From: Gordonia tangerina
GTDB taxonomy: Bacteria; Actinomycetota; Actinomycetes; Mycobacteriales; Mycobacteriaceae
Assembly: GCF_021556435.1 (NCBI RefSeq)
Contig: NZ_JAKGCU010000001.1
Coordinates: forward strand, 558,001 to 622,000
Direction of reading: 5' to 3'
Length of the DNA: 64,000 nucleotides
The notes below the pieces were generated by a model. That model was given only the letters and a program-made list of their open reading frames with translations, did not search any database and was not told where the DNA came from. Of the stretch, positions 10,853 through 18,949 are shown piece after piece. Position 1 is the stretch's first letter, and the number at the start of each line of letters is the position of its first letter. Made by a program: the position numbers and the translations under genes.

Positions 10853-12070
10853 TCACGAGGAGGCATTCGTCGGGGTGTGGTCCGCCGGTTCGGTGGTCCG
10901 CATCCGCTCAGGCCGGTGTAGTCGCGCATAGCTGCTGTGCCAGAGCCGTTCCAGGGGACCGCGATCGAATCGCCGGAGCCACAGCCGCGCGAGCACCATC
11001 AGCACTACGGTGATGCCGAGGAACAGCCCGATCGTCGCGGGCACGACCGTGGTCGGGTCGAGGCGTGCGGCCAGGCCGAGTCCCCACCCGTAGCAGATGG
11101 CGCCGGCCAGTGCGTTCTGGAAGACGTAGCAGCTCAACGCCGTCCGGCCGATCGGCGAGAGGGCGCGGCCGAGGATCCCGGGTGTCCGGCCGTCCGCGTA
11201 GAAAGCCGCGATCGCCGCGAGGATCCCGAGTGCGACGATCGGCGCGAGCAGGTAGCGGCCGACGATCAGGCCGGCGTCGCCGCCGGTGATGCCGACGACG
11301 AGGTCGAGCGGGAACGCGACGCCGAGTCCGACGATCATCAGCCGCCTCCGCAGCCGGCCGGCCGACGGTACGCGTGTCGTCGGCTCGAGGACGCCTGCCC
11401 GCAGGAGGGCGGCGCCGACGAGGAACAGCGCCACCGACATCGGCAGGATCAGGACGACCTCGGCACGGAACAGCGCGATGTGCGCGGCACGGAACACGAC
11501 GAGATCGAGGAACGAGCCGTCGGCGTACGGATTGGGTGACAGCGGTTGTGCTCGGTCGGTCGGTGGGGCGGTCGCGAGCGCGGCGACGATCAGCGTCAGC
11601 AGCAGCACATGGATGACTGCGGCAGTGATCAGCGCGACGTGTTGTCGTCGGATGGTCGTCGACAGGATGAACGCCACGATCAGGCCGGTGACCGCGTAAC
11701 CCATCAGGACGTCGAACTCGGTGAAGAGGAAGTAGTTGACCGTGCCGTCGACGAAGAGCAGTGCCGCGCGCCACGGATAGCCACCGGGCCATGATTCGCC
11801 ACGACGTTCCGCGGAACGCTGTTGGATGGCGAGTCCGATGCCGAACATGATCGTGAGCAGGCCGAGGAACTTGCCCTGTGCGAGCTGTTGCAGGACGTCC
11901 TGGACCACGGACCATGCCCCGGTCGCCTCGTGGGTGCCGTTGAGATAGCCGACCAGACCGTCGACATTCGTGAAGATCCAGATATTGGTGGCCAGCGTCC
12001 CGAGAATGGCGACGCCACGCAAGACGTCGAGGGCGGCGAAGCGTCGGGGCGCGGTGGGCAGGTCCGTCAC
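10853..12070 (-). CDS. DUF418 domain-containing membrane protein
   Basis: About 405 aa with roughly ten hydrophobic helices. The N-terminal RRFAALDVLRGVAILGTLATNI and the C-terminal DUF418 block (PIGRTALSCYVFQNALAGAI, GPLERLWH) are diagnostic of this family, whose members are thought to be small-molecule or acyl-group related membrane proteins but lack an assigned reaction. I chose GTG 12070, which has GAAGGA just upstream; the frame stays open to 12142. It is divergent from the TetR gene at 12181, a likely regulator-target pair. Confidence 0.82.
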   Translation of the reverse strand: MTDLPTAPRRFAALDVLRGVAILGTLATNIWIFTNVDGLVGYLNGTHEATGAWSVVQDVLQQLAQGKFLGLLTIMFGIGLAIQQRSAERRGESWPGGYPWRAALLFVDGTVNYFLFTEFDVLMGYAVTGLIVAFILSTTIRRQHVALITAAVIHVLLLTLIVAALATAPPTDRAQPLSPNPYADGSFLDLVVFRAAHIALFRAEVVLILPMSVALFLVGAALLRAGVLEPTTRVPSAGRLRRRLMIVGLGVAFPLDLVVGITGGDAGLIVGRYLLAPIVALGILAAIAAFYADGRTPGILGRALSPIGRTALSCYVFQNALAGAICYGWGLGLAARLDPTTVVPATIGLFLGITVVLMVLARLWLRRFDRGPLERLWHSSYARLHRPERMRTTEPADHTPTNASS

Positions 12071-12168
12071 AGTTCCTTCGTCGTCGTCGGGAGTCGTCCG
12101 GGCAAGGCGCAGACGATTGTGGCGGCACGACTGTGTTGGCAACGCGACCTAAGCTAGCACAGTTGGGC

Positions 12169-12174
12169 TACCAT
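12169..12174 (+). promoter_or_regulatory. probable -10 box (TACCAT) for a leaderless TetR transcript
   Basis: TACCAT matches TANNNT and is followed by exactly six bases before the GTG at 12181. No Shine-Dalgarno sequence precedes that GTG, so transcription and translation probably start at the same base. No clear -35 was found. Confidence 0.5.
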
Positions 12175-12180
12175 GCGGAA

Positions 12181-12765
12181 GTGCCCAAGCTGATCGACCA
12201 CGACGCCCGACGAACTGAGATCGCGGAGGCGCTCTGGCGGGTGGTGCTCCGCGAAGGGGTGTCGGGGGTGTCGATCCGGGACGTCGCCGCCGAGGCGGGG
12301 ATTTCCGCCGGGTCGTTGCGACATGTGTTCGCCGACAAGGAGGAGTTGCTCGCGTTCTCGATGCGGCTGATCTATCAGCGGGTCGGGGAGCGTGTCGTCG
12401 GGCACGGGTCTGTCCGCGATCCGCTGCGGCGCGCGGAGGCGATGCTGTCGGAGGTTCTACCGTTCGACGACGTCCGGCGGGTCGAGATGCACGTGAACCT
12501 GGCGCTGGTCACCGATGCGGTCGCACATCCGGGGCTGGCCGAGGCCGGACTCGAGGCGCACGACGGCCTGCGGGCGCTGTCTCGGCGGGTGCTGACCGAT
12601 CTGGGCGACCACGGGCTCGTCGACGCGCGGCACGATCTGGAGGCCGAGGCGATGAGACTGCACGCGCTTGTCGACGGGCTGGCGGTGCATCTGCTGTTGG
12701 GGCACAACGACGCGCCCGCCCGGGTACGCCGGCTGGTCCGGGATCACCTGGGGTCGTTGCGCTGA
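12181..12765 (+). CDS. TetR family transcriptional regulator
   Basis: The 194-aa protein starts with VPKLIDHDARRTEIAEALWR, a TetR helix-turn-helix (EGVSGVSIRDVAAEAGISAG, SLRHVFADKEELLAFSMRL) in about the first 60 residues, and then a TetR_C-type ligand domain. The assignment of GTG 12181 rests on the conserved family start and the TANNNT-N6-GTG spacing. It is transcribed away from the DUF418 gene and may repress it and itself. A repeat-rich spacer with 12-bp copies follows the gene. Confidence 0.85.
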   Translation: MPKLIDHDARRTEIAEALWRVVLREGVSGVSIRDVAAEAGISAGSLRHVFADKEELLAFSMRLIYQRVGERVVGHGSVRDPLRRAEAMLSEVLPFDDVRRVEMHVNLALVTDAVAHPGLAEAGLEAHDGLRALSRRVLTDLGDHGLVDARHDLEAEAMRLHALVDGLAVHLLLGHNDAPARVRRLVRDHLGSLR

Positions 12766-12964: not shown

Positions 12965-15598
12965 CTACGACACGACCGGCTTGTGTCCGGCGCCGAGCGC
13001 GATGTCGGCGGTGTTGCGTTGTCCGGCGGACACACTGACCGCGAGGGCCGTCGGCTCGTACATGTTGGCAACCACCGTGAACGCCGAGTCGGTGAGTCCC
13101 TCGATGCGGTAGCGGCCGTCGGTGTCGGTGGTCACCGACGCGACGATCGTCTGATCGGGTCCGATTGCCGATACCGTGGCGCCGACGAGCGGTGTGCCGT
13201 CGGGGGTGAGGACCGTACCCTGCACGCCACCGGTGGCGATCAGGACGATGTCGACCACGCCGGGTGCCGAGGCGTCGACGGTCACGAGTTGACTTGTCGG
13301 CTGGTAGCCGGGCGCCGAGGCCGTGACGGCGACAGTGTCCCCGTTCGACAGGCCGCCGATGACGAAGTCGCCGTCGGAGCCGGCGTGCGCCCGGGTGACC
13401 ACCGCGCCCGACCGGTCGGTGACCACCAGGGCCGCCGGTAGCGGACGGTCCCCGTCGCGGACCGTGCCGCGCAGAGTCGATCCCCCGGCGAGGACGAAGT
13501 CGCGACGGAAGGTCAGCTCACCGACGACGGACACCGTGAGCGCCCGCGGCGACCGGCCCGGTGCGGTCGCGATGACCGTATAGGTGCCGTCGGCGAGATC
13601 ACCCACCGCGTAGGACCCGTCCGGCCCGACCGTGGCCGTACCGACCTGGTGGCCCCGGACATCGGTCACCGTCACGGCGGCTTCGGCGGGCGCGACGCCG
13701 TCGGACCCGTTGATGTGTCCGGTGATTCGGGGGTCGCCGCTCGCCGCGGAACCTGCCGTCGACGGGCCAGGCTTGCGGTGTCGTGCCCCGGTCATGTGCG
13801 CTTCGTCGATCAGCTCCGCGGGTGTGCCTACGCCGGCATCGGCGGCGACGGCAGCCAGTTCGGCGCCCACCATCTCCGGTGTCGCCGACTTCGGCGATCC
13901 GGTGAACAGCGAGGCGATCGCACCGATCACACAGCAGATGAGAGCGAAGGTGAACGCGGCGGTGAGGCCATCGGAGAACGGATCACTGATCAGATGCGGG
14001 AAGAAGTCCAACCCGGTCAGGTGATCCACCGCCGACTGCGGCAGGCCCTGCAGCGCTTGACCGCCGACCTCACGGATGGGGTTGTAGCCGAGGAACGCCG
14101 CGAAAAGGATGCCCACGGTGGGCAGATGAGCAATCCCGTCGGCGGGCGCGTCGGGCATGCCGTTGGCAGTGAGTCCGCTGAACATCGCGTCGGGCAGATG
14201 CGCGCTGAGTCCGGCGATCATCAGCGAGAAGAACAACCCGATCGACAGCACCATCGCGGCGTTCTGGAATGTGGTCATCATCCCGGCGCCCGACCCGCGG
14301 GAGGTGATGGGCAAGCTGTTCATCACCTCGGCACGGTTGGGGGAGGCGAACAGCCCCATGCCGATTCCGTTGATGAGCATCACCAGAGCGAAGACCCAGT
14401 ACTGGAAGTCGACCGGCATCGCGATGAGTGCGGCGAAGGTACCGGCGGTGATGACCATGCCGGTGGTGGTGAACCATTTGGTACCCAGCCGATCGGACAG
14501 TGCACCCGATACCGGTGCGCTGAGCAGGAAGCCGATGGTCATCGGCACCATGTAGATACCTGCCCACAGCGGCGTGCGCGAGTAGTCGTATCCGTGCTGC
14601 GGCAGCCAGATGCCCTGCAGCCAGATGATGAGGATGAACTGAAGACCGCCGCGTCCGATGGAGGCCATCAGATTCGCTATGTTGCCGAAGGCGAAAGAAC
14701 GGTTGCGGAACAGGGATAGTTCGAACAGCGGGCTTGCGACCTTGGTCTCGATGAAGACGAAGATGCCCAGCACGACGGCACCACCGATGAGTCCGGTCAG
14801 GACCCACGGGTTGCCCCAGCCCATGTTGGAGGTGCCGTAGGGCTGGATGCCGTAGGTGATCGCGATGAGGATGGCGATGAGCCCGACGGCGAAGGTGATG
14901 TTGCCCCACCAGTCCATCTTGGCCTTGCGGCGTTCGCCGGTGTCGTGGAGTTTCAGGTACGCCCAGATGGTTCCGACCACGCCGAACGGCACCGAGACCA
15001 GGAAGATGTAGTGCCACTGGATCGGTGCCAGCACACCGCCGATCAGCAAGCCGAGGAACGACCCGGCGATGGCGGCAACGCCGTTGATGCCCATGGCTAG
15101 TCCGCGCTGATTGGCCGGGAAGGCGTCGGTGAGGATGGCCGACGAGTTCGCCATCAGGAAGGCGCCACCGACGCCTTGGATGATGCGCCAGAAGATCAGC
15201 CAGATGGCCGCTTCGCCACCGTCGAACCAGGTGATGGCCAAGAAGATCGACGAGACGGTGAAGATCGCGAACCCCATGTTGTACATCCGGGCGCGACCGA
15301 ACATGTCGCCGAGACGACCGAAGCTGACCACCAGCACAGCGGTCACCACGAGGAAGCCCATCATCATCCACAGCAGATAGCTGGTGTTCTGCGGTTCCAA
15401 CGGATTGAGGTGAATGCCCTTGAAGATGTCGGGTAGCGCGATCAGCACGATGGAGGAGTTGATGGTCGCGATCAGCATCCCCAACGTGGTGTTGGACAGG
15501 GCAATCCATTTGTAGTTGGGGCCGAGTTCGGCAAGGGAGCGCTGTCGGGAGCCGCGGGCGGTGGTGCCCGGGGCGACGGCGGTGCTGGTGTCGGACAT
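12965..15598 (-). CDS. MFS (DHA2-type) transporter with three C-terminal carboxypeptidase-regulatory-like domains
   Basis: 877 aa. Residues about 35-590 form a 14-TM major facilitator exporter: TTLGMLIATINSSIVLIALP with the DHA2 start, FGRLGDMFGRARMYNMGF (motif A), FWRIIQGVGGAFLMANSSAI and AMGINGVAAIAGSFLG. From about residue 622 there are three tandem 80-85-aa beta-sandwich repeats with the hallmark DG-(S/R/D)-(Y/F)-x-(V/I)-x(2)-L and G-Y/R-x-P patterns (GPDGSYAVGDLADGTYTVIA, GSDGDFVIGGLSNGD, DTDGRYRIEGLTDSAFTVVA). This fusion is unusual. Start ATG 15598 has AAAGG upstream. It is the last gene of the MarR operon, 36 nt after the YceI gene; with 14 TMs the tail should be cytoplasmic. Confidence 0.88.
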   Translation of the reverse strand: MSDTSTAVAPGTTARGSRQRSLAELGPNYKWIALSNTTLGMLIATINSSIVLIALPDIFKGIHLNPLEPQNTSYLLWMMMGFLVVTAVLVVSFGRLGDMFGRARMYNMGFAIFTVSSIFLAITWFDGGEAAIWLIFWRIIQGVGGAFLMANSSAILTDAFPANQRGLAMGINGVAAIAGSFLGLLIGGVLAPIQWHYIFLVSVPFGVVGTIWAYLKLHDTGERRKAKMDWWGNITFAVGLIAILIAITYGIQPYGTSNMGWGNPWVLTGLIGGAVVLGIFVFIETKVASPLFELSLFRNRSFAFGNIANLMASIGRGGLQFILIIWLQGIWLPQHGYDYSRTPLWAGIYMVPMTIGFLLSAPVSGALSDRLGTKWFTTTGMVITAGTFAALIAMPVDFQYWVFALVMLINGIGMGLFASPNRAEVMNSLPITSRGSGAGMMTTFQNAAMVLSIGLFFSLMIAGLSAHLPDAMFSGLTANGMPDAPADGIAHLPTVGILFAAFLGYNPIREVGGQALQGLPQSAVDHLTGLDFFPHLISDPFSDGLTAAFTFALICCVIGAIASLFTGSPKSATPEMVGAELAAVAADAGVGTPAELIDEAHMTGARHRKPGPSTAGSAASGDPRITGHINGSDGVAPAEAAVTVTDVRGHQVGTATVGPDGSYAVGDLADGTYTVIATAPGRSPRALTVSVVGELTFRRDFVLAGGSTLRGTVRDGDRPLPAALVVTDRSGAVVTRAHAGSDGDFVIGGLSNGDTVAVTASAPGYQPTSQLVTVDASAPGVVDIVLIATGGVQGTVLTPDGTPLVGATVSAIGPDQTIVASVTTDTDGRYRIEGLTDSAFTVVANMYEPTALAVSVSAGQRNTADIALGAGHKPVVS

Positions 15599-15634
15599 GA
15601 TGCCTTTCAGATCAATCAGGAACAATGTGGTTGC

Positions 15635-16441
15635 TCAGGGGGTACGGATGGCCTGGATCTCCAGATCGACCGATGCGGTGCCGCCGATCTGCGCCACCCC
15701 ACTGATCAGTTTGTCGTCGAAGCTGATGCCGAAATCGTTGCGCTGCAACGTCCCCGTCGCGCGGAATGCGGCCCGCCGACCGCCCCAGGGGTCGTCGACC
15801 TCGCCGAGGTAGGACAGGTTGAGGTCGACCGGAACCGAGGTCCCGCGCAGGGTCAGATGCCCGGCCAGGCGCCAGGTGTCGTCGCTGCCCGGGCACACCC
15901 GCGTCGCCCGGAACTCGGCGAGCGGATACTGCTCGACATCGAAGAACGCCGCGGAGCGCAGGTGTCCGTCGCGGGTCTGGTTGTCGGTGTCGATGCTGGC
16001 CGTGCTGATCTGGGCGCTCACCGACGACGCCTCGACGTCCTCGGGCACCTCGATGCGGCCTGAGAAGTCGGTGAATCGGCCTTTGATGGTGGCGATTCCG
16101 AAGTGCCGGACGCTGATCTCGACGGTGGAGTGGCCGGGATCGATCTCCCATGATCCGGCCGCCGGCACCGGCGCTCCGCCGGAGCGGGTCACCGCGATCG
16201 TGCCGAGGCTCACCTGTCCAGCGCCGTTGACCACCGCCGTGCGGGCGGTGGGCGCGAAGCCGTCGGCGGTGATGACCACCGTGTAGGTGCCTGCGTCGAG
16301 GGCGTCGGTGGTGATGGCGCCGCCGTCGTCGCCGCGCAGGACGGCCTGCTGCTCGCCGGTGGCGGACATGACGGTCATCACCGCGGCCGGCAGCGGATGG
16401 CCGCTCGACGTCGCCACGCGCGCGGTGATGGTGCCACTCAT
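15635..16441 (-). CDS. YceI family protein with N-terminal carboxypeptidase-regulatory-like domain
   Basis: 268 aa. Residues 1-85 form one beta-sandwich repeat (GTITARVATSSGHPLPAAVM, DAGTYTVVITADGFAPTART). Residues about 93-268 are a YceI lipocalin-like barrel: GSWEIDPGHSTVEISVRHFG, TIKGRFTDFSGRIEVPED, SIDTDNQTRDGHLRSAAFFD, LTLRGTSVPVDLNLSY and FGISFDDKLISGVAQIGGT. YceI proteins bind polyisoprenoid or other amphiphilic chains. No signal peptide is visible, unlike many YceI proteins, so it is probably cytoplasmic. ATG 16441 overlaps the upstream gene's stop by 4 nt. Confidence 0.88.
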   Translation of the reverse strand: MSGTITARVATSSGHPLPAAVMTVMSATGEQQAVLRGDDGGAITTDALDAGTYTVVITADGFAPTARTAVVNGAGQVSLGTIAVTRSGGAPVPAAGSWEIDPGHSTVEISVRHFGIATIKGRFTDFSGRIEVPEDVEASSVSAQISTASIDTDNQTRDGHLRSAAFFDVEQYPLAEFRATRVCPGSDDTWRLAGHLTLRGTSVPVDLNLSYLGEVDDPWGGRRAAFRATGTLQRNDFGISFDDKLISGVAQIGGTASVDLEIQAIRTP

Positions 16442-17265
16442 GCCTGCCCCCGTGCGCCCAGGACGAATTCGTGGGTGACCACGCGCCCGGGCTCGATGTC
16501 GATGGTGATGGCCTCCGGCGCATAGCCGTTGGCGATGACGGTGTAGTCGCCGGGTGCGAGGTTCGCGAAGAGATAGCGGCCGGCGGCGTCGGTCAACATA
16601 CTCGCCGCCATCTGCCCGGCATTGTCGAGTAGACCGACCTGGCTGTGCGGCACCGGTTGTCCTTCGGTCACGCCGTCTCCGTCGGTGATCACCCCGGCCA
16701 GCTCCGCTGCGGTCCGCAGCACGATGTCGGCCACGGCGACTCCGGTTCCGCCGACGGTGACCGTCTCGGCGACCGGGTCGCAGCCGGCCGCGGTCACGAT
16801 GACGGTGTACGTGCCGACCGGCAGTCCGGAGACTTCCCACCCTCCGGTGGCATCGGTGACCGCGGTGGTGGTGACGTGACCTGCCCGGTCGGCCACGGCT
16901 ACCGTCGCGTGTGCCACCGGCTCTCCGGTCGCCGACGTCGTGACCGTTCCGCCGAGTGCGGCCATGGAGGCGAGCGCCACCTCGATGTCGATCGGCGTGG
17001 CTCCCACGGTCACGGTCACCGCGGCAGGTTCATGGCCGGCCGCGGAGACGACGACCACGTAGTGGCCGCCGGCGGACACATCGACGACGAAGGTCCCGTC
17101 GCTGCGGGCCATCGAACGCGCGGCCTGCCGCCCACTCGGATCGACGACGGTGATCGTGGCGTCGCCGACGGTCGCTCCCCCGGAACGGATCTCGCCACGT
17201 ATCACGCCACCGGATGCTCGGGAGGTGCCATCGCCCTCACGATGGCCGTTGGTGCCGGGCTGCAT
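16438..17265 (-). CDS. carboxypeptidase-regulatory-like triple-repeat protein
   Basis: 275 aa made almost entirely of three tandem beta-sandwich repeats of the CarboxypepD_reg type (about residues 20-100, 101-187 and 188-270), for example RSDGTFVVDVSAGGHYVVVV, GGWEVSGLPVGTYTVIVTAA and AAGRYLFANLAPGDYTVIAN. There is no catalytic domain, signal peptide or membrane segment. It shares repeats with the two downstream proteins, suggesting a common assembly or ligand. Start ATG 17265 follows GAAGGG, overlapping the MarR stop by one base. Function unknown. Confidence 0.85.
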   Translation of the reverse strand: MQPGTNGHREGDGTSRASGGVIRGEIRSGGATVGDATITVVDPSGRQAARSMARSDGTFVVDVSAGGHYVVVVSAAGHEPAAVTVTVGATPIDIEVALASMAALGGTVTTSATGEPVAHATVAVADRAGHVTTTAVTDATGGWEVSGLPVGTYTVIVTAAGCDPVAETVTVGGTGVAVADIVLRTAAELAGVITDGDGVTEGQPVPHSQVGLLDNAGQMAASMLTDAAGRYLFANLAPGDYTVIANGYAPEAITIDIEPGRVVTHEFVLGARGQA

Positions 17266-17741
17266 CAGGTTCCCTTCTGCTGAGTCGGGGTCAGGGCGCA
17301 CACGGTGTCGGCGAGCAGCCGCATCGACCGTTCGACACACCGGCGATCCGGATCGGTGAGTGCATCGAGCGCGGACTCGAACAGCGCCGAGTTCCGTGAC
17401 GAGGCACCAGCGAGATGCGCACTGCCGGCGTCGCTCAGCGCGAGCAGACTCACCCGGCCGTCGTGGGCGTCGGTGGTGCGGACCACCATCCCGAGGTGCT
17501 CGAGCGAGGCCGCCACCCGCGACATGGTCGGTGCCGCGACTCGCTCGCGGTCGGCGAGTTCGGTCGCCCGGATGGGTGCATGCTGCGCAATCGTCCACAG
17601 CGCCGACATCTGGCTCGGCGACAACAGGTTGTCTCCGGTCGTCGACCGGACGGCACGCCCGATCCGGATCAGGTCGCGGTGGATGGCCGCGGCGCCGCGC
17701 AGCGCCATCGTGTCGGCGGGATCGTCGACGATGTGACTCAT
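17265..17741 (-). CDS. MarR family transcriptional regulator
   Basis: The 158-aa winged-helix regulator contains LSPSQMSALWTIAQHAPIRA, ELADRERVAAPTMSRVAASL (recognition helix) and the wing VVRTTDAHDGRVSLLALSDA. It heads the four-gene operon with the beta-sandwich, YceI and MFS genes. ATG 17741 follows GGAGGG by about 6 nt. Two matched palindromes lie 18-53 nt upstream of the start, consistent with autoregulation. By analogy with other MarR-MFS operons it probably releases DNA on binding a phenolic or lipophilic ligand; that is inference. Confidence 0.9.
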   Translation of the reverse strand: MSHIVDDPADTMALRGAAAIHRDLIRIGRAVRSTTGDNLLSPSQMSALWTIAQHAPIRATELADRERVAAPTMSRVAASLEHLGMVVRTTDAHDGRVSLLALSDAGSAHLAGASSRNSALFESALDALTDPDRRCVERSMRLLADTVCALTPTQQKGT

Positions 17742-17759
17742 CCCTGCCCTCCAAAAAAC

Positions 17760-17794
17760 TTAGTAACACTAAATTAATTACTTAGCCACCCTAA
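17760..17794. promoter_or_regulatory. twin MarR-type operators (TTAG-N5-CTAA)
   Basis: TTAGTAACACTAA (17760-17772) and TTAGCCACCCTAA (17782-17794) share the arms TTAG/CTAA, and their centres are 22 bp apart, two helical turns. They sit in a locally AT-rich stretch directly upstream of the MarR gene that probably also holds its promoter. Their form and position fit MarR dimer sites. Confidence 0.7.
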
Positions 17795-18055
17795 ATGGAT
17801 CTGGTGGGCACAGTCGATTCGGATGGGTGTGAGTTGGGCGACATCGGAGCTGAAAATTGGGACAAAGCAGCATATTTCGGACAACCCACGTTGGCGGAGG
17901 CGGTGTTTTCGTGGTCGTCGGCGTCGCCGGAGCGCACGGGATCCGTCGACGGGTGTATCGATGTTCGCGTTGCCGCGTCGGCGATGTCGTAGCATCTCGG
18001 ACACGTCGAACACGGTGCGACACATGGTCTGGGGAGCGAAGGGAAGGGTGGCGCC
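17795..18055. other. spacer upstream of ppk2
   Basis: No gene, strong promoter or palindrome is recognised beyond the MarR operators at the left edge. The ppk2 promoter must lie here. Confidence 0.4.
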
Positions 18056-18949
18056 ATGGGGAAGAAGTCGAAGAAGAAGCGCGACGGGGGCCGCGCCGGG
18101 CACGACACCTCAACCGGTGGCTCGGGCCAGTCGGCGCCGATCGACAACAAGCCTGGCGAGACCAAACCGGTCGAGGGCAAACCGATGAAGAACAAGGAGT
18201 ATCGGGAACAGCTCAAGCAGGTGCACGCGGAGCTCGTGGCGATGCAGGAGTGGGTGCGCTCGACCGGCGCCAAGATCTGCATCGTCTTCGAGGGCCGCGA
18301 CACCGCCGGCAAGGGCGGCGTCATCAAGGCCCTGACCGAGCGGGTCAGTCCCCGGATCTTCCGGGTGGTCGCGTTGCCGACACCCACAGAACGCGAGAAG
18401 TCCCAGATGTTCCTTCAGCGGTACGTACCCCACCTTCCCGCGGCGGGCGAGGTCGTCATCTTCGACCGCAGTTGGTACAACCGTGCGGGCGTCGAGCGGG
18501 TGATGGGTTTCTGCACCGAAGAGCAGTCGAAACAGTTCTTGTCCGATGCTCCCGAGTTCGAGCGGGCCATGGTGCGGTCGGGAATCCTGCTGATCAAGTA
18601 CTGGTTAGAGGTCAGCGACGACCAGCAGACCCTACGGCTGCAGAGCCGCATCGACGACCCCCGTAAGTATTGGAAACTCTCCCCGATGGACCTGAAGTCC
18701 TACACCCGATGGGACGAGTACACCCGTGCCCGCGACGACATGTTCCGCTACACCGACACTGGCTGGGCGCCCTGGTATGTGGCCAACACCGACGACAAGA
18801 AGCGCGGTCGGCTCAACATCCTCACCCATCTCCTCGGGCTGGTGCCCTACACTCCGCTCGAAGCGCCCGACGTGGAGCTTCCGAAACGAACAGTGGGTGC
18901 CTACGAGGGGCCGTCCCTCCCGGTGACCAGGGTGCCGTCGGCGTTCTGA
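18056..18949 (+). CDS. ppk2: polyphosphate kinase 2
   Basis: The 297-aa PPK2 transfers phosphate between polyphosphate and nucleoside di- or monophosphates. Walker A GRDTAGKGG is at about residues 80-88, Walker B VVIFDRSWYNRAG has its Asp near 137, and the lid region contains RIDDPRKYWKLSPMDLKSY. The C-terminus WYVANTDDKKRGRLNILTHL is typical. A 45-residue Lys/Gly-rich N-terminal extension (MGKKSKKKRDGG) precedes the catalytic core and may bind polyphosphate. It is a single-domain protein; whether it favours GDP, ADP or AMP cannot be read with certainty. Confidence 0.93.
   Translation: MGKKSKKKRDGGRAGHDTSTGGSGQSAPIDNKPGETKPVEGKPMKNKEYREQLKQVHAELVAMQEWVRSTGAKICIVFEGRDTAGKGGVIKALTERVSPRIFRVVALPTPTEREKSQMFLQRYVPHLPAAGEVVIFDRSWYNRAGVERVMGFCTEEQSKQFLSDAPEFERAMVRSGILLIKYWLEVSDDQQTLRLQSRIDDPRKYWKLSPMDLKSYTRWDEYTRARDDMFRYTDTGWAPWYVANTDDKKRGRLNILTHLLGLVPYTPLEAPDVELPKRTVGAYEGPSLPVTRVPSAF

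Follow-up and report, generated by a model that had tools for sequence, protein, structure and literature searches.

Why should three consecutive genes of one operon, encoding a soluble protein, a lipocalin-like protein and a membrane exporter, share the same repeated domain? The question is raised by a 64,000-nucleotide stretch of Gordonia tangerina DNA (contig NZ_JAKGCU010000001.1, positions 558,001 to 622,000; hereafter the window). A minus-strand operon in this window (17741-12965) encodes a MarR regulator, a protein of three CarboxypepD_reg repeats (PF13620; hereafter CPD), a fusion of one CPD repeat with a YceI domain (CPD-YceI) and a DHA2-type exporter of the major facilitator superfamily (MFS) with a three-repeat tail. 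In the following, CPD3 denotes a triple repeat, and MFS exporters with C-terminal CPD repeats are called tailed. Our answer, to which we assign a probability of about 0.5, is that the CPD repeats may be a shared cytoplasmic tag by which exporters are coupled to the YceI lipocalin; the docking itself, the cargo and its transport are steps that we infer. We favor this answer because the module is conserved, the tail and CPD-YceI co-occur and were lost in the same lineage, the repeats are homologous position by position, four MFS clades have tailed members, and export signals were not detected. The features of the operon are as follows.

17754-17795, minus strand: pair of palindromes, 17776-17795 and 17754-17773, in front of marR that may serve as MarR operators
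17265-17741, minus strand: marR, MarR-family regulator, 158 aa
16438-17265, minus strand: standalone CPD3 protein, 275 aa, with repeats at 16978-17202, 16717-16956 and 16459-16698
15635-16441, minus strand: CPD-YceI fusion, 268 aa, with CPD at 16432-16205 and the YceI domain at 16150-15650
12965-15598, minus strand: DHA2-like MFS exporter with a triple-CPD C-terminal tail, 877 aa (Pfam and AlphaFold2 model)
13904-15598, minus strand: exporter membrane core, residues 1-565, with 14 predicted transmembrane (TM) helices (AlphaFold2 model and relatives)
13727-13903, minus strand: predicted flexible linker from the last TM helix to the tail, residues 566-624 (pLDDT blocks 27-40 over residues 571-620)
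12995-13726, minus strand: exporter tail with three CPD repeats at 13726-13490, 13477-13241 and 13225-12995 (PF13620; modelled strands over residues 625-863, pLDDT blocks 79-95)

The marR and CPD3 genes overlap by 1 nucleotide (nt; TGATG), the CPD3 and CPD-YceI genes by 4 nt (ATGA), and a gap of 36 nt precedes the exporter gene; these spacings, given in an earlier note on this DNA, agree with the coordinates. Pfam detected three PF13620 stretches in the 275-aa protein (1.8e-37). The 268-aa protein matched both PF13620 (3.2e-8) and YceI (5.2e-42), the exporter matched MFS_1 (8.4e-39) and, over three stretches, PF13620 (1.4e-34), and the regulator matched MarR (3.7e-13), its winged-helix domain scoring 49.6 bits against a cut-off of 24.6. 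Only eight PF13620 matches were obtained at E 0.001 in the whole genome (5.29 Mb). Seven of them, all above the curated cut-off, lie inside the three operon genes, which rules out a chance clustering of the domain, and the eighth is a DUF1416 protein on another contig (L095:5297-6100). The gene set that the earlier note had described was confirmed by both searches. The YceI domain of the fusion covers profile positions 1-150 of 150 (144.2 bits, cut-off 23.7) and matches T. thermophilus TT1927b (1WUB, 4.6e-34), and many of its positions are invariant across 22 aligned fusions. It shares the full domain with YceI lipocalins that include solved relatives, such as TT1927b, E. coli YceI and BcnA/BcnB.

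Distribution and origin of the module

The CPD-YceI loci were drawn from 298 genomes of the same order and from named loci, the latter being the best 80 of 555 relatives in a species-level collection. The first CPD-YceI subfamily comprises 119 loci, 80 of them named and 39 from the order including the window; loci at contig edges were kept, and 15 loci of a second subfamily (L079-L093) were left out. The named loci are mostly from Streptomyces, and also from Actinomadura, Kutzneria, Saccharopolyspora, Gordonia and others; with the module so widely conserved, an oddity of a single genome is ruled out. A CPD gene adjoins CPD-YceI in 110 of the 119 loci, counting L053, where the tail is split over short open reading frames (ORFs) and is probably disturbed. 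A tailed MFS gene lies directly upstream in 95 of the 119, and 129 of 133 tailed MFS ORFs have tails of exactly three repeats.

Outside Gordonia (a name that, for the sample genomes, denotes the genus of the window), the genes usually follow the order MarR - MFS(CPD3) - CPD1-YceI. Among the 14 Gordonia genomes with CPD-YceI, ten have MarR - CPD3 - CPD-YceI - MFS(CPD3) and one has the same order without a detected MarR; in one the genes are split over two contigs, and in two a third MFS type precedes CPD3 and CPD-YceI. The window is a variant of the common order, with CPD3 in the place of the type-A exporter and a type-B exporter last. Judged by this comparison of sequences, the window operon is the Gordonia form of a widespread conserved actinobacterial module. 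Conservation of the gene order in related genomes, on which the earlier note made its reading depend, holds for the gene set, but the order differs between genera, and the one seen in the window is that of Gordonia.

Profiles of the repeat positions were built from non-Gordonia loci (and checked on the training sequences themselves, without leave-one-out). Each of the 27 triplet repeats from five Gordonia loci scored best against a class of its own position, and repeats 1-2-3 of the standalone CPD3 correspond by position to repeats 1-2-3 of exporter tails. Outside its own class, the window's standalone triplet scored best against type-A exporter tails, by a clear margin for repeats 1 and 2 but only just for repeat 3; the standalone repeat 2 of two other Gordonia loci leans to type B. 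Because of these type-A scores, and because it occupies the place that the type-A exporter has elsewhere, the standalone three-repeat protein is probably a detached type-A exporter tail. The MFS core of the window is of type B, distinct from the common type A. In a FastTree tree of 108 MFS cores, the deep nodes of which are poorly supported, the triple tail occurs in four clades, and two of these clades are extra lone exporters in the same Gordonia genomes.

Several variants and neighbors were observed besides. Six operon-bearing Gordonia genomes also encode further tailed exporters, which belong to other MFS clades and have no CPD partner next to them (L223-L231); one of these exporters is split over two ORFs. 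In Streptomyces-like genomes, a second tailed exporter (L237, L241-L244) is preceded by an ORF of 169-185 aa, possibly a regulator. In S. macrolidinus, the gene of a CPD4-YceI protein (L105:6059-7816) is separated from a neighboring tail-less exporter gene by a hairpin-like stretch. This could be either a genuine fusion or a damaged gene: the units were assigned to A1-A2-A3-Y1, but a hairpin on this draft contig seems to disturb the beginning of unit 1, which makes a natural fusion doubtful. Members of the second CPD-YceI subfamily (e.g. L087:7006-7878) are about 31-37% identical to the fusion of the window and often have a short basic N-terminal stretch. No tailed MFS was found in the 15 fetched loci of this subfamily, the neighbors were variable in the 4 of 15 loci looked at, and some genomes carry both subfamilies. 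Downstream of the window operon lie genes for a TetR regulator (12133-12765) and a DUF418 membrane protein (10853-12142). A polyphosphate kinase 2 gene (18056-18949) is divergent from marR, and matching DNA adjoins the locus in L217, L204 and L209.

Co-occurrence and loss of the tail

CPD-YceI was found in 14 of 59 Gordonia genomes. Exactly these 14 have 8-14 PF13620 matches, compared with 0-2 in the other 45 (Fisher p 7.5e-14). Single short PF13620 matches, many in frames of 103-108 aa, occur in many other Gordonia genomes with or without the system, and only that of the window's own genome was checked as DUF1416. The type-B exporter is present in 34 of the 59 genomes. It is tailed in 12 (one partly seen at a contig edge), all of which have CPD-YceI, whereas only one of the 22 genomes with tail-less type B alone has it (G731, where it lies beside a tailed MFS of another type). 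Four genomes carry a tailed type-B copy in the operon and a tail-less copy elsewhere. In the order sample, CPD-YceI was found in 8 of 8 tailed type-B genomes versus 9 of 71 other type-B genomes, G267, in which the type-B match ends at residue 721, being counted as untailed. In the phylum sample, this CPD-YceI type, delimited by a threshold of E 1e-63 that was chosen after the gap to the second subfamily was visible, was found in 11 of 14 genomes with a CPD triplet versus 0 of 382 others. The candidates scored per genome were 15 in the Gordonia type-B search, 3 in the order type-B search and 6 in the phylum searches. A superseded phylum test with a different query had given the tail in 10 of 11 CPD-YceI genomes, including the window's own, and two tailed genomes without CPD-YceI. 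The co-occurrence of CPD, YceI and MFS across actinobacteria, proposed as a check in the earlier note, was thus borne out in the genus, order and phylum samples.

A natural loss was found in locus L217 of genome G701, which is probably G. mangrovi. This locus matches the window on both flanks of the operon and keeps the exporter core (87% identical DNA), but the exporter ends at 607 aa, and MarR, CPD3, CPD-YceI and the exporter tail are missing. Across the whole G701 genome, CPD-YceI was not detected at E 1e-45, and PF13620 matched once. In a codon-aligned tree of 19 Gordonia type-B genes, from which the contig-edge fragment L212 was left out, L217 and the window fall in a five-member clade with 100% support, and forcing the tailed genes together without L217 was rejected by the approximately unbiased (AU) test (p 0.0003). 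L217 thus sits within the tailed exporters, and its lack of a tail reflects a loss, not an original absence, in the lineage that also lost the soluble CPD proteins.

The pattern of the twin sites upstream of marR had two matches in the window DNA and none in 100 shuffles, a count that is not independent because the pattern was taken from these sites. Of 10 Gordonia regions upstream of marR, 9 show the first site by eye and 6 show the two together (one region ends before the second site). L217 keeps both before its bare exporter, with 2 and 3 mismatches, and no operator-like sites were found in L218. The window MarR matches best its counterparts in the Gordonia operon (115-220 bits), followed by MarRs adjoining tail-less type-B MFS genes (87-102 bits).

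These patterns bear on two other explanations. The tail might be a cytoplasmic sensing or gating domain, with CPD-YceI and CPD3 binding the same small molecule in the same response but not docking on the exporter. An independent domain of this kind would suit the long flexible linker and the existence of a soluble CPD3, and the DUF1416 protein of the same genome has a CPD-like domain that is not beside a tailed exporter. By itself, however, a sensing role predicts neither that tails vanish where the soluble partners do nor that the same ordered triplet appears in several MFS clades, and we consider it unlikely. Alternatively, the operon might serve multidrug efflux, where YceI would capture lipophilic antibiotics for the exporter to expel and the CPD repeats would be mere stabilizing modules spread by recombination. 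QacA/B, EfpA and EmrB are among the related models and chains of the exporter, a MarR gene is present, and the YceI lipocalin BcnA binds antibiotics, according to the available text of PMC5350466. However, the repeat numbers are nearly fixed (3 and 1), each repeat is specific to its position, and the Gordonia genomes show an all-or-none pattern; all this points to a specific role for the repeats and makes this explanation quite improbable.

Location of the repeats

The shared tag that we propose would lie in the cytoplasm. The earlier note had seen no signal peptide in any of the three CPD proteins. None was found in the window's soluble CPD proteins by the list of start sites and hydropathy either (a dedicated signal-peptide predictor was not run); the start sites leave no room for one, and therefore an export signal hidden behind another start is unlikely to fit. 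A check of the first subfamily (17 standalone and 119 fusion ORFs) revealed a strongly hydrophobic segment ahead of the first CPD in just three cases, L054, L061 and L075, whose ORFs as listed are either a truncated MFS or a long overlapping reading frame.

The AlphaFold2 model of the exporter (42-sequence alignment, mean pLDDT 74.2, pTM 0.58) is of moderate confidence, with values below 50 in parts of TM5-6. Fourteen TM helices were counted from its helix list, two kinked helices being joined, and TM14 is followed by a disordered stretch of about 50 residues and then by three beta-sandwich domains (pLDDT blocks 79-95). The model thus agrees with the 14 TM helices of the earlier note, but hydropathy alone gives 15 hydrophobic segments in the type-B subfamily of the window, because an extra hydrophobic stretch (about residues 486-504) lies in the TM13-14 loop, where the model breaks it into short helices. 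Hydropathy found 13 segments in two type-A exporters, and 14 segments with positive-inside loops in three exporters from two other tailed clades. Known DHA2 proteins have their N-terminus inside, and an even number of helices would therefore place the tail in the cytoplasm. With no signal peptide by hydropathy and an even TM count in the model, all seven CPD repeats are most likely cytoplasmic. An extracellular location of the tail and the soluble CPD proteins, with binding to cell-wall polymers, which the many extracellular PF13620 relatives and the 15 segments of the type-B exporters might suggest, is highly improbable in view of the lack of signal peptides by hydropathy in standalone and fusion proteins with usable start sites, the 14 positive-inside segments in representatives of two other tailed clades and the 14 TM helices of the model.

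The exporter scored 167.3 bits against NCBIfam TIGR00711, below the cut-off of 230.2, and is DHA2-like yet outside that model; the Streptomyces type-A exporter L153 passes it (234.1 bits). It resembles the DHA2 exporters QacA, EmrB and EfpA in its 14-TM core and in length, and its best solved chains were 'Antiseptic resistance protein' 7Y58, presumably QacA, and EfpA. None of the solved DHA2 chains matched the CPD-tail region, where the sole matching chain was NOMO2.

A proposed carrier coupled to exporters

If the repeats are a shared cytoplasmic tag, MarR would repress the operon from the twin operators until an amphiphilic inducer appears. CPD-YceI would act as a cytoplasmic lipocalin that holds a lipophilic molecule in its YceI barrel, as its family suggests: octaprenyl compounds or ubiquinone are ligands of YceI relatives, and BcnA captures antibiotics (PMC5350466 and PMC9113575). 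The single CPD of the fusion would dock on the triple-CPD tail, which hangs from the exporter by the flexible linker, and docking would deliver the ligand to the DHA2-like exporter for extrusion. The standalone CPD3 may have been kept as a soluble adaptor or buffer, and one CPD-YceI may serve several tailed exporters per cell. More tentatively, the module might represent a new kind of export machinery. A lipocalin in the cytoplasm, loaded with lipophilic cargo, would plug by its CPD into the CPD-triplet tails of distinct MFS subfamilies, so that one carrier would be combined with interchangeable tag-bearing pumps. The earlier note had suggested that seven repeats inside the cell form a scaffold that hands a hydrophobic molecule from the YceI protein to the exporter. 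This reading is supported in part: the intracellular position of the repeats is most likely correct, and the system is conserved, with co-occurrence of tail and partners and their loss in the same lineage. The standalone protein of three repeats, for its part, resembles an exporter tail that has become detached.

Several observations weigh against a shared tag. Nine of the 119 loci (L059, L063, L066, L069, L070, L077, L099, L105 and L140) are without an adjacent upstream CPD gene on the same strand. A tailed MFS gene lies nearby on the opposite strand in L077 and L099, the triplet is fused to CPD-YceI in L105, and L140 has no other match. Like the genome of L059, those of L063, L066, L069 and L070 and of their genus-mate L061 (5 of 5) encode a tailed exporter at another site; these five speak for the shared tag. 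A search of 12 genomes for tailed exporters gave no match in G000, G285, G247 and G066, but in G000 and G285 the query passed over tailed exporters of other types, so that the result for G247 and G066 is not proof of absence. In the phylum sample, G060, G432 and G654 have a CPD triplet without this CPD-YceI type, the only match in G654 resembling the second subfamily. The Fisher values overstate the number of independent events because the genomes are related. The TetR and DUF418 genes beside the tail are also missing in L217, so the loss of the tail might be collateral. Finally, tail clades A and C group with a support of 0.70, so that the four clades need not each mark a separate gain of the tail.

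Tripartite efflux systems of the EmrAB-TolC type also combine a DHA2 exporter with an accessory protein, but their adaptor is periplasmic, whereas the accessory proteins of the present module are apparently cytoplasmic. The S. coelicolor pump SCO4121 is reportedly an MFS protein under MarR control with a multidrug phenotype (Nag and Mehra 2021). In PMC6767563, the product of sco4120 is described as a predicted regulatory protein, not as YceI. The view that SCO4121 is a characterized member of the module is neither supported nor disproved. According to PMC9113575, BcnA is a secreted protein encoded after a cytochrome b561 gene; in contrast, the CPD-YceI of the window is free of a signal peptide by hydropathy, has a CPD repeat and is encoded beside an exporter. 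In other actinobacteria, a YceI gene lies among sulfonamide monooxygenase genes, for which the authors of PMC6868719 propose a role of YceI in uptake. No paper on the combination of a CPD-tailed exporter with CPD-YceI was found in the open-licence literature, which was judged mostly from titles and the openings of abstracts.

MFS exporters are usually thought to draw their substrates from the membrane or the cytosol without a carrier protein. If true, a carrier-and-tag system in Gordonia, Streptomyces, Actinomadura and their relatives would change how the substrates of some pumps are sought, and the CPD tail would be a marker for which DHA2-like pumps work together. The pattern of presence and absence in Gordonia, together with the natural loss, provides ready comparison strains.

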